From an uncultured Bacteroidota bacterium (lineage in GTDB: Bacteria; Bacteroidota; Bacteroidia; 2-12-FULL-35-15), in NCBI GenBank assembly GCA_903919535.1, contig CAIXIP010000160.1, positions 1 to 35,187 of the forward strand: DNA of 35,187 nucleotides, written 5' to 3'. A model generated the notes under the pieces. It worked only from the letters and a program-made list of their open reading frames with translations. It had not been told where the DNA came from and made no database searches. Position numbers and translations under genes: made by a program. This document shows, piece by piece, positions 17,293 to 20,938 of this stretch. The stretch's first letter is position 1; each line of letters begins with the position of its first letter.

Positions 17293-17736
17293 TTACTCAA
17301 AGAAAGGTATATTTTCCAAATAGTTATAATTATTGGTCGAATAATCCATTTGGCAACAAAAATGATTGAGTCCATTCGTAATCACCAAATATTTCACTTT
17401 AAAATTCATGTTGTACCGTGCCACCTGATCAAACACATCTTGAGTGATCTTTACTTCTGGAGCTTTACACTCTACCATTAAATAAGGAGTCCCACTTTTA
17501 TCATACACTAAAACATCTGCCCGTTTTTGCAATTGATTATACTTTAAACCCATTTCCACAGCAATTAATGAGGCTGGAAATTTCTTTTCATGTATTAAAA
17601 ACTGTAAAAAATTCTGACGCACCCATTCTTCAGGAGTTAGTATCACATATTTTTTTCGAATAGCGTCAAAAATCTGTGTGACTAGTCCTTTCTGCTTAAG
17701 TTTGAACTGATATGTTGGTAAATTAAGTGCTTGCAT
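17293..17736 (-). CDS. Stand-alone HsdR N-terminal-like (PD-(D/E)xK) protein
   Basis: The 147-residue protein consists of one domain resembling the N-terminal nuclease domain of type I restriction HsdR subunits (HSDR_N_2 type). Candidate PD-(D/E)xK residues are Asp74 in RADVLVYD and Glu89-x-Lys91 in VECKAP, followed by VFDQVARYNM (a QxxxY-like helix) and YLVITNGLNHFCC. No helicase or methylase gene is nearby, so this is not a type I restriction system. Proteins of this size occur throughout Bacteroidota near holA, as here (holA is 1 kb away beyond amn), which suggests a housekeeping nucleic-acid role; that context is from memory. No consensus -7 box was found upstream. Confidence 0.88.
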   Translation of the reverse strand: MQALNLPTYQFKLKQKGLVTQIFDAIRKKYVILTPEEWVRQNFLQFLIHEKKFPASLIAVEMGLKYNQLQKRADVLVYDKSGTPYLMVECKAPEVKITQDVFDQVARYNMNFKVKYLVITNGLNHFCCQMDYSTNNYNYLENIPFFE

Positions 17737-18748: not shown

Positions 18749-19798
18749 ATGGAATTTAATGAGATAATGTCGGAATTAAAAAAGAAGGTGTATCGCCCTG
18801 TTTATTTTTTAATGGGCGAAGAACCTTATTTTATTGATATTATTTCTGATTATATTGAGAACAATGTGTTGGATGAAATGGGTAAAGAATTTAATCAAAC
18901 CGTTCTTTATGGCCGAGATGTAAATGCGTCTGATATAATTGGTGCAGCAAAGCGCTTCCCAATGATGAGCGAACATCAGGTGATTATTGTAAAGGAAGCA
19001 CAGAATATTCGTGACCTTGTTGCTAAAGAAAAAGAAGGCGACAAACAAAAAGATAAGGAAAAAGCAAAATTACCTTTCGAAAGTTATCTAGAAAACCCAC
19101 AAAAATCAACAATTCTTGTAATTTGTTACAAATACAAAACAATTGATAAACGCACCAGCATTGCAAAATTCATTGAAAAAAATGCGGTGCTTTTTGATTC
19201 AAAAAAAATATACGATAATCAGGTTCCTGCCTGGATCAATAATTATTTGCAAGGAAAAGAATTTACCATTGGTCCCAAGGCAAGCGCTTTACTTACTGAA
19301 TATTTAGGAACAAACCTCAGTAAAGTTTCCAATGAGTTGGATAAATTAATAATAAATCTTCCTCAAAAAGCGGAAATCACTGTTGATCAAATCCAAGCGA
19401 ATATAGGGATTAGCAAGGATTACAATGTGTTTGAATTACAAAATGCCATCGGTAAAAAGGAGGTTTTAAAAGCAAATCGTATCATCAATTATTTTGCTGC
19501 TAATGACAAAGAGCATCCTTTAGTAATGACCGTTTCTTCCCTTTACGGATATTTCTGTAAATTACTATCCTATCACTTTGTTACTGATAAATCAAAAGGA
19601 AGCATCGCTTCTGCATTAGGAGTCAATCCTTTTTTTGTGAGTGATTACGAACGTGCTGCAAAAAACTTTTCTGTAGATAAATTAAGAAGGATCTTTGCGT
19701 ATTTACGCGAGTATGATCTTAAATCAAAAGGCGTGGAAACGGGTTCAGTTACAGAAGGAGAGTTGTTGAAAGAGTTGCTGTTTAAAATATTGCATTAG
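18749..19798 (+). CDS. holA: DNA polymerase III subunit delta
   Basis: Delta opens the beta sliding clamp as part of the clamp loader. The 349-residue protein has the delta outline: an N-terminal degenerate AAA+ domain without a Walker A motif (VYFLMGEEPYFIDIISDYI, FPMMSEHQVIIVKEAQNI, STILVICYKYKTIDKR), a helical middle with LGTNLSKVSNELDKLI, and a C-terminal collar domain (VFELQNAIGKKEVLKANRII). A Lys-rich insert (KEKEGDKQKDKEKAK, about residue 93) sits in the AAA+ domain, as is often seen in this phylum. It lies between amn and the CHAT-like gene with short gaps on both sides (39 and 26 bp). Confidence 0.94.
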   Translation: MEFNEIMSELKKKVYRPVYFLMGEEPYFIDIISDYIENNVLDEMGKEFNQTVLYGRDVNASDIIGAAKRFPMMSEHQVIIVKEAQNIRDLVAKEKEGDKQKDKEKAKLPFESYLENPQKSTILVICYKYKTIDKRTSIAKFIEKNAVLFDSKKIYDNQVPAWINNYLQGKEFTIGPKASALLTEYLGTNLSKVSNELDKLIINLPQKAEITVDQIQANIGISKDYNVFELQNAIGKKEVLKANRIINYFAANDKEHPLVMTVSSLYGYFCKLLSYHFVTDKSKGSIASALGVNPFFVSDYERAAKNFSVDKLRRIFAYLREYDLKSKGVETGSVTEGELLKELLFKILH

Positions 19799-19824: not shown

Positions 19825-20427
19825 ATGAAAAAAGGCATCTACTGTTTAGAGGGTTTGTGGGCGCATGATTTAAAAAATAAATCGACCGTGCTTCCTATTT
19901 TGGAATTATTGGAAAAAGGTGGCATTTCTAATTTCATTCATCATACCTGTGCAACAAAAGAAGAACTAGGCTTTTTTCTTGAAAAATGGAAACAAAAAAC
20001 CATAAAAAATAAATACCCAATTTTATATCTCGCGTTTCATGGTAAAAAAGGACACATTTATATTACAGACAAAACAACTCTTTCACTAAACGACCTTGCT
20101 GAAACTCTTGGCGATTCGGCTGATGGGAAAGTAGTATTTTTTGCATCCTGCGAAACATTAAATACCGGAGGAAGAACAATTCAGGCATTTCTAAAAAAAA
20201 CAAATGCAATAGCGGCTATTGGCTATAAACAAGAAGTTGATTGGATGGTTGCTACAGCCTTCGAGCTTTTAGTTTTAGATGCACTGCAGCAAGATAAATT
20301 TGACAGCAAAGGAATCGAGAATATAGAACGAAAAATAAAATCAGAATATGGCAATCTTCACCAGATATTAGATTGCCGAATTGTTATAAATAAATACATT
20401 CATTTTCCTAGAAAAAGAACTACGTAA
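19825..20427 (+). CDS. Small CHAT/caspase-like protein, probable cysteine peptidase fold
   Basis: The 200-residue cytosolic protein has two conserved-looking blocks of the CHAT (caspase HetF-associated) fold: ILYLAFHGKKGHIYI with His72 and KVVFFASCETL with Cys109, each at the end of a hydrophobic strand, followed by GGRTIQAFLKKTNAIAAIGY, an acidic-aromatic segment and a helix FELLVLDALQQ. The His-Gly and Ala-Ser-Cys-Glu-Thr pattern and the 37-residue spacing fit a His-Cys dyad. The N-terminus (MKKGIYCLEGLWAHDLKNKS) belongs to a small uncharacterised family, I think one listed as DUF6642, but I cannot confirm it. There are no TPR or other partner domains, unlike typical CHAT proteins. It starts 26 bp after holA, so it is probably co-transcribed. 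Peptidase activity is inference. Confidence 0.75.
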   Translation: MKKGIYCLEGLWAHDLKNKSTVLPILELLEKGGISNFIHHTCATKEELGFFLEKWKQKTIKNKYPILYLAFHGKKGHIYITDKTTLSLNDLAETLGDSADGKVVFFASCETLNTGGRTIQAFLKKTNAIAAIGYKQEVDWMVATAFELLVLDALQQDKFDSKGIENIERKIKSEYGNLHQILDCRIVINKYIHFPRKRTT

Positions 20428-20530: not shown

Positions 20531-20938
20531 ATGAATCATTGGCTTGTAAAATCAGAACCGTATAAATACAGTTGGACACAATTCGTAAAAGATAAAAAAG
20601 CTGTATGGGATGGCGTCCGTAATTATTCCGCTCGAAACAATATGCGAGCTATGAAAAAAGGTGATCTTGTTTTGTTTTATCATAGCAATGAAGGACTTGA
20701 AATTGTTGGCATTGCGAAGGTGATTAAAGAAGCTTATCAAGATCCAACAACAGAAGATACAGCATGGAGCGTTGTTGAACTTGCACCATTTAAAGCACTA
20801 AAAAAAACTGTTACATTGGCGCAAGTAAAAGCTGATAAACAATTAGCCGATATTCAATTGGTTAAACAAGGACGTTTATCCGTGGCTTCGATAAAGCCTT
20901 TTGAGTTTGATAGGATTCTTGCGATATCAGAAAGTTAA
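20531..20938 (+). CDS. EVE domain-containing protein
   Basis: The 135 residues are one EVE domain (PUA-like/YTH-related fold): HWLVKSEPYKYSWTQF, WDGVRNYSARNNMRAMKKGD, VLFYHSNEGLEIVGIAKV and a C-terminal LSVASIKPFEFDRIL. EVE proteins are thought to recognise modified bases in DNA or RNA; the aromatic residues that would form the cage (Trp4, Trp15, Trp26 and Tyr32) are present. The gene lies 103 bp after the CHAT-like gene and ends in a strong terminator. No consensus promoter is seen in that gap, so it may share the upstream transcript or have an atypical promoter. Confidence 0.93.
   Translation: MNHWLVKSEPYKYSWTQFVKDKKAVWDGVRNYSARNNMRAMKKGDLVLFYHSNEGLEIVGIAKVIKEAYQDPTTEDTAWSVVELAPFKALKKTVTLAQVKADKQLADIQLVKQGRLSVASIKPFEFDRILAISES

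Follow-up and report, generated by a model that had tools for sequence, protein, structure and literature searches.

A 200-residue protein of an uncultured Bacteroidota bacterium is best explained as an autonomous, accessory cysteine endopeptidase from a family that also contains a derived pseudoprotease branch, a reading to which we give a probability of roughly two in three. Its strongest support is that a histidine and a cysteine, placed by the predicted fold where a caspase-like protease would carry its catalytic dyad, are conserved together and were lost together on a single occasion. The window is the whole stretch of DNA that was analysed (35,187 nucleotides), and its relevant features are the following:

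18749..19798, forward strand: holA (DNA polymerase III delta), upstream neighbour, assigned with Pfam
19825..20427, forward strand: DUF6642 family gene, 200 amino acids, single-domain, predicted caspase-like (ORF with an ATG start; Pfam PF20347, 85.2 bits; AlphaFold2 model)
19843..19851, forward strand: CLE motif (Cys7-Leu8-Glu9) at the end of core strand 1, from the conservation table
20038..20040, forward strand: codon CAT of His72, in LAFHGKKG, the predicted general base after core strand 3 (66-70)
20149..20151, forward strand: codon TGC of Cys109, in FFASCETL, the predicted nucleophile after core strand 4 (103-106)
20531..20938, forward strand: EVE domain gene, downstream neighbour, assigned with Pfam

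The first-pass annotation had described this open reading frame with its His72 and Cys109, and all three are present as described. The protein matches DUF6642, a Pfam family without assigned function, with an E-value of 5.8e-24 and a score of 85.2 bits against a gathering cut-off of 27 bits, over residues 3-186 and profile positions 2-180 of 182. Because of this match and because pairwise dN/dS is low among dyad-bearing relatives of the same genus (0.016-0.074), we consider the ORF a real gene; its own genome holds one copy. No NCBIfam model matched the window protein, and a literature search for DUF6642 found no papers. All members of the family are single-domain proteins, with a median length of 194 amino acids. 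One of them, L242 (341 amino acids), was considered as a domain fusion and rejected, since its extra length is read-through beyond the domain and holds no second domain.

An AlphaFold2 model built on an alignment of 76 relatives (mean pLDDT 92.9, pTM 0.90) has six core strands (5-10, 37-42, 66-70, 103-106, 130-134 and 184-188) that form a caspase-like domain, together with a hairpin (77-79/85-87) and helices between the strands. His72 stands directly after strand 66-70 and Cys109 after strand 103-106, followed by a helix (116-126), strand 130-134 and further helices, in agreement with the earlier description of two residues that each end a hydrophobic strand and of a helical end. When the model was compared with the PDB by Foldseek, the top match was the SAVED-CHAT filament 8tl0 (E 2.9e-7), followed by caspases, Csx29 and Craspase. 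Re-alignment with VIA gave Z 14.3 and rmsd 3.5 over 173 residues for 8tl0_C, Z 11-12 for caspases and Z 11.3 for Craspase 7y85_D. A caspase-like fold had been set beforehand as a test of the first-pass annotation, and the model and its matches bear it out: a complete six-strand caspase-like fold of clan CD type is predicted within 200 residues, in which strand 3 is followed by the putative catalytic His and strand 4 by the putative catalytic Cys, as in that clan. Such a fold by itself does not prove proteolysis.

Is the protein a member of the CHAT family? It had been so described, and the nearest known structure is indeed a SAVED-CHAT protein, but membership at the level of sequence did not follow. 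Pfam CHAT (PF12770; cut-off 24 bits) does not match the window protein and gives weak matches in 3 of 76 relatives (best E 0.0019). In hhalign, His72 and Cys109 pair with the His and Cys of CHAT at a probability of just 13.5%, and one of 60 column-shuffled controls reached an equally high value. Neither the single protein nor a 76-member profile found anything relevant among PDB sequences, and Pfam C14 did not match the window protein. One relative matched Peptidase_C25 weakly (E 0.073), and separase was not among the matches listed. Given this weak sequence evidence, we classify the protein by its fold instead of by profile and leave it outside the CHAT family. A literature search on CHAT plus orthocaspase found no papers.

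Comparison with the structural matches shows how little surrounds the domain in DUF6642. The alignment to 8tl0, the nearest solved fold, extends over the whole domain, but that protein is a filament-forming fusion of CHAT with a SAVED sensor, whereas the window protein is sensor-less and about 14% identical. The TPR-CHAT proteins Csx29 and Craspase (7y85, 8eey, 8d9f) also combine a caspase-like domain with a His-Cys dyad, namely H615/C658 in Csx29 (PMC10028731) and H585/C627 in Craspase (PMC9729208). They are, however, large TPR fusions working with a CRISPR effector, whereas DUF6642 proteins are unfused, measure about 190-200 amino acids and have no CRISPR genes in the loci examined. Csx29 combines an active CHAT2 with a pseudo-caspase CHAT1 (PMC10028731), whereas the putative pseudoprotease of DUF6642 is a protein in its own right. 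Caspases (family C14) have the same fold with six core strands but are only about 10% identical, and their Asp specificity is no established trait of DUF6642. The link to TPR, sensor or effector domains that is usual, though not strict, for CHAT is thus absent from the single-domain DUF6642 proteins. Two long proteins with clear CHAT domains (open frames of 1096 and 979 amino acids) are encoded elsewhere in the window's own genome, unlinked to the DUF6642 gene:

G000:C198:3322-4269 (locus L132) and C244:10442-11296 (locus L133): genomic CHAT proteins

The gene also stands alone in the genome. In 8 same-genus genomes without a DUF6642 gene, holA and the EVE domain gene lie next to each other, in most cases no more than about 150 bp apart, and this empty site indicates that the DUF6642 gene comes and goes by itself; holA and the EVE domain gene are the flanks of an insertion site, and holA is no functional partner. 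The family is distributed patchily, being found in 20 of 59 relatives, in 14 of the 125 genomes of a Cloacimonadota sample and in 10 of 396 in the phylum of L078. Phyla are intermingled in a quick tree of DUF6642, which suggests horizontal transfer. Neighbour clustering across 107 loci yielded no conserved operon partner, the clusters tracking lineages only, and tallies of Pfam and PADLOC assignments for 94 direct neighbours revealed no theme. The short upstream genes seen in several loci were considered as a partner or antitoxin and rejected, as they are mutually unrelated. With neither a fusion nor a conserved neighbour, the minimal protein without a partner domain that had been proposed is what we find.

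Patchy occurrence as a lone accessory gene would also suit a single-gene stress or anti-phage effector, in which a triggered caspase-like protease would cleave host proteins and halt growth, and known CHAT proteases do act in CRISPR-linked immunity (PMC10028731; PMC9729208). A minority of relatives, all dyad-bearing, lie beside genes of defence type: (i) L094 adjoins BrxA and a PglZ-like ORF; (ii) L058 adjoins HsdM/HsdS-like genes with an AAA ATPase and a PtuB-like HNH; (iii) L090 adjoins putative type I R-M-like and dynamin-like genes; and (iv) L022, on a plasmid, has an Abi gene alongside. A putative type III R-M-like helicase likewise adjoins L102. We regard these few neighbours as a lead only. 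Against a defence effector, the immediate neighbours of the family are mostly unrelated housekeeping genes, and the defence neighbours differ from one another. Moreover, no PADLOC model matched the window protein at E-values up to 10; phage records and viral contigs held no DUF6642 relative, and plasmid records held one, in Brevibacterium. The candidate defence role suggested in the first-pass annotation was not supported, there being no conserved or consistent defence context among the loci examined, and we consider a stress or anti-phage effector unlikely.

The argument for an autonomous cysteine endopeptidase turns on the behaviour of its dyad across the family. Relatives were gathered by a His-seeded scan (AFHG seed) and, so that this seed would not bias the set, by a protein search of one family and by searches with the family HMM in the genus and class, the phylum and other phyla. 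The final alignment has 206 rows (both residues in 110, neither in 95, a single residue in none, one truncated), 15 of which are repeats of the same locus. Among the 191 distinct relatives, 95 have both residues, 95 have neither, none has just one and one is truncated; His72 and Cys109 are thus kept or missing together in all 190 that have both positions. Every full-length relative examined outside Flavobacteriaceae carries the pair, and it never varies among the dyad-bearing relatives, which span many phyla at 25-50% identity, so the two residues are not there by chance. Free variation of the two residues among homologues had been set as the second refuting test of the first-pass annotation, and it is not what we see. 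The possibility that the His is conserved because of the AFHG seed was rejected by the family-HMM searches of Cloacimonadota and of the phylum of L078.

Other positions divide according to the dyad. G10, W12, P24, E47, W55 and Q155 are conserved only along with it, and such joint relaxation is as expected for an active-site neighbourhood. Cys7 and Glu9, on the other hand, hardly vary whether the dyad is present or not, so the CLE motif serves a purpose other than catalysis. The C-E-T-like motif that had been noted is real in the window protein (FFASCETL), but position 110 is mostly Ser in relatives and the exact motif is no family feature.

In a tree computed without the two dyad columns, the dyad-less proteins all group in a single clade of Flavobacteriaceae, which has 100/100 support and arises from within dyad-bearing lineages; the earlier quick tree agrees. 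Both residues were thus lost on a single branch, and their co-variation reflects one event, not many. Just outside this clade, with 100% bootstrap, lie L178 and L279, two proteins of Flavobacteriaceae that have the dyad, and their position gives the direction of the change as loss. Within the clade, the former His position has drifted (to P, T, E, Q, A, K, S, G and others) and so has the former Cys position (to A, L, T, K, S, E and others), and new invariant residues of the conservation table include D43, D57, F60 and N108. Pairwise dN/dS (Nei-Gojobori) is 0.01-0.12, with several pairs near saturation, and the model of a dyad-less member is again caspase-like (pLDDT 87, Z 13.4 to 8tl0_C). The clade is under purifying selection and is not decaying. 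In one genus, 110 of 199 genomes have a DUF6642 gene, and nearly all of those examined are dyad-less. This pattern reads as the loss of an enzyme function followed by new constraint on the same fold, and it shows that the caspase-like fold of DUF6642 has a use without catalysis. Inactive relatives exist among caspases too (c-FLIP). One Flavobacteriaceae genome, G1388, encodes the dyad-bearing L279 and the dyad-less L280 together, and L279 is sister to the whole dyad-less clade.

Could the family be non-catalytic throughout? In that case the proteins would be binding or sensing modules whose His and Cys serve ligand binding, metal binding or redox sensing and have been dispensed with in Flavobacteriaceae. 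A large clade that lacks both residues, yet keeps the fold under strong purifying selection and retains Cys7, Glu9, Tyr68, Gly73 and Gly133 in common with dyad-bearing members, is compatible with such a module. However, the His and Cys sit exactly at the dyad positions of caspase-like proteases and are invariant wherever the dyad is found, and their single joint loss, accompanied by relaxed constraint at neighbouring positions, is what the loss of an enzyme activity looks like. We therefore hold a family-wide non-catalytic role to be distinctly improbable. We give very little weight to a Cys-His enzyme with another chemistry on a caspase-like scaffold (e.g., acyl transfer or small-molecule amide hydrolysis): sequence leaves room for other chemistries on related Cys-His scaffolds, but the top structural matches are nearly all endopeptidases.

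How might an autonomous endopeptidase of this kind work? The window protein would be a soluble, one-domain cysteine endopeptidase of clan CD type, in which Cys109, activated by His72, makes a nucleophilic attack on a peptide bond of a small number of specific cytosolic proteins, perhaps just one. In known CHAT proteases, Cys and His come together only upon some input, and in Craspase the Cys-His distance shortens from ~7 to 3 Å upon target RNA binding (PMC9729208). Because DUF6642 proteins have no TPR, SAVED or other sensor domain, control would have to come from oligomerisation or self-assembly, from a trans-acting partner or from the substrate itself. The gene is an accessory one, gained and lost alone. 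Its dyad-less descendants, which keep the fold and are under selection, would act by binding, as pseudoproteases.

Bacterial caspase-like proteases known in immunity are, to our knowledge, large fusions dependent on a sensor domain or a CRISPR effector. A family of 190-200 amino acids that has the entire fold and no attached domain would offer the least elaborate version of the enzyme for study, and it could reveal by what means caspase-like proteases are controlled when they have no built-in sensor. Compared with Pfam's description of DUF6642, the fold and likely enzyme class are probably new, as is the well-polarised transition from protease to pseudoprotease in Flavobacteriaceae. The single co-loss, with an intact sister copy beside a dyad-less one in the same genome, provides a natural comparison of the two forms. 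We suggest, more tentatively, that DUF6642 as a whole comprises unrecognised autonomous one-domain caspase-like proteases, whose genes occur as solitary accessory genes in roughly a dozen phyla. One joint loss of the two catalytic residues would then have given rise to the pseudoprotease that became common in Flavobacterium-type bacteria, in a split like that between caspase-8 and c-FLIP. Most dyad-less Flavobacteriaceae proteins score ~200-311 bits against Pfam DUF6642, whereas most dyad-bearing ones score ~50-140, which argues that the catalytic form is under-represented in the Pfam model. Our reading thus offers a functional hypothesis for a family whose best-scoring members are the ones predicted to be catalytically dead.

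Two minor observations concern other loci. A DUF6642 match in genome G612 (G612:C1:331171-331407) is partial, contains an in-frame TAG and may be a decaying copy. In the window itself, positions 17293-17736 (reverse strand) encode a stand-alone protein of 147 amino acids whose sole domain is HSDR_N_2 (the N-terminal domain of type I restriction enzyme R), and this gene is conserved near an AMP-nucleosidase-like gene and holA in the genus.
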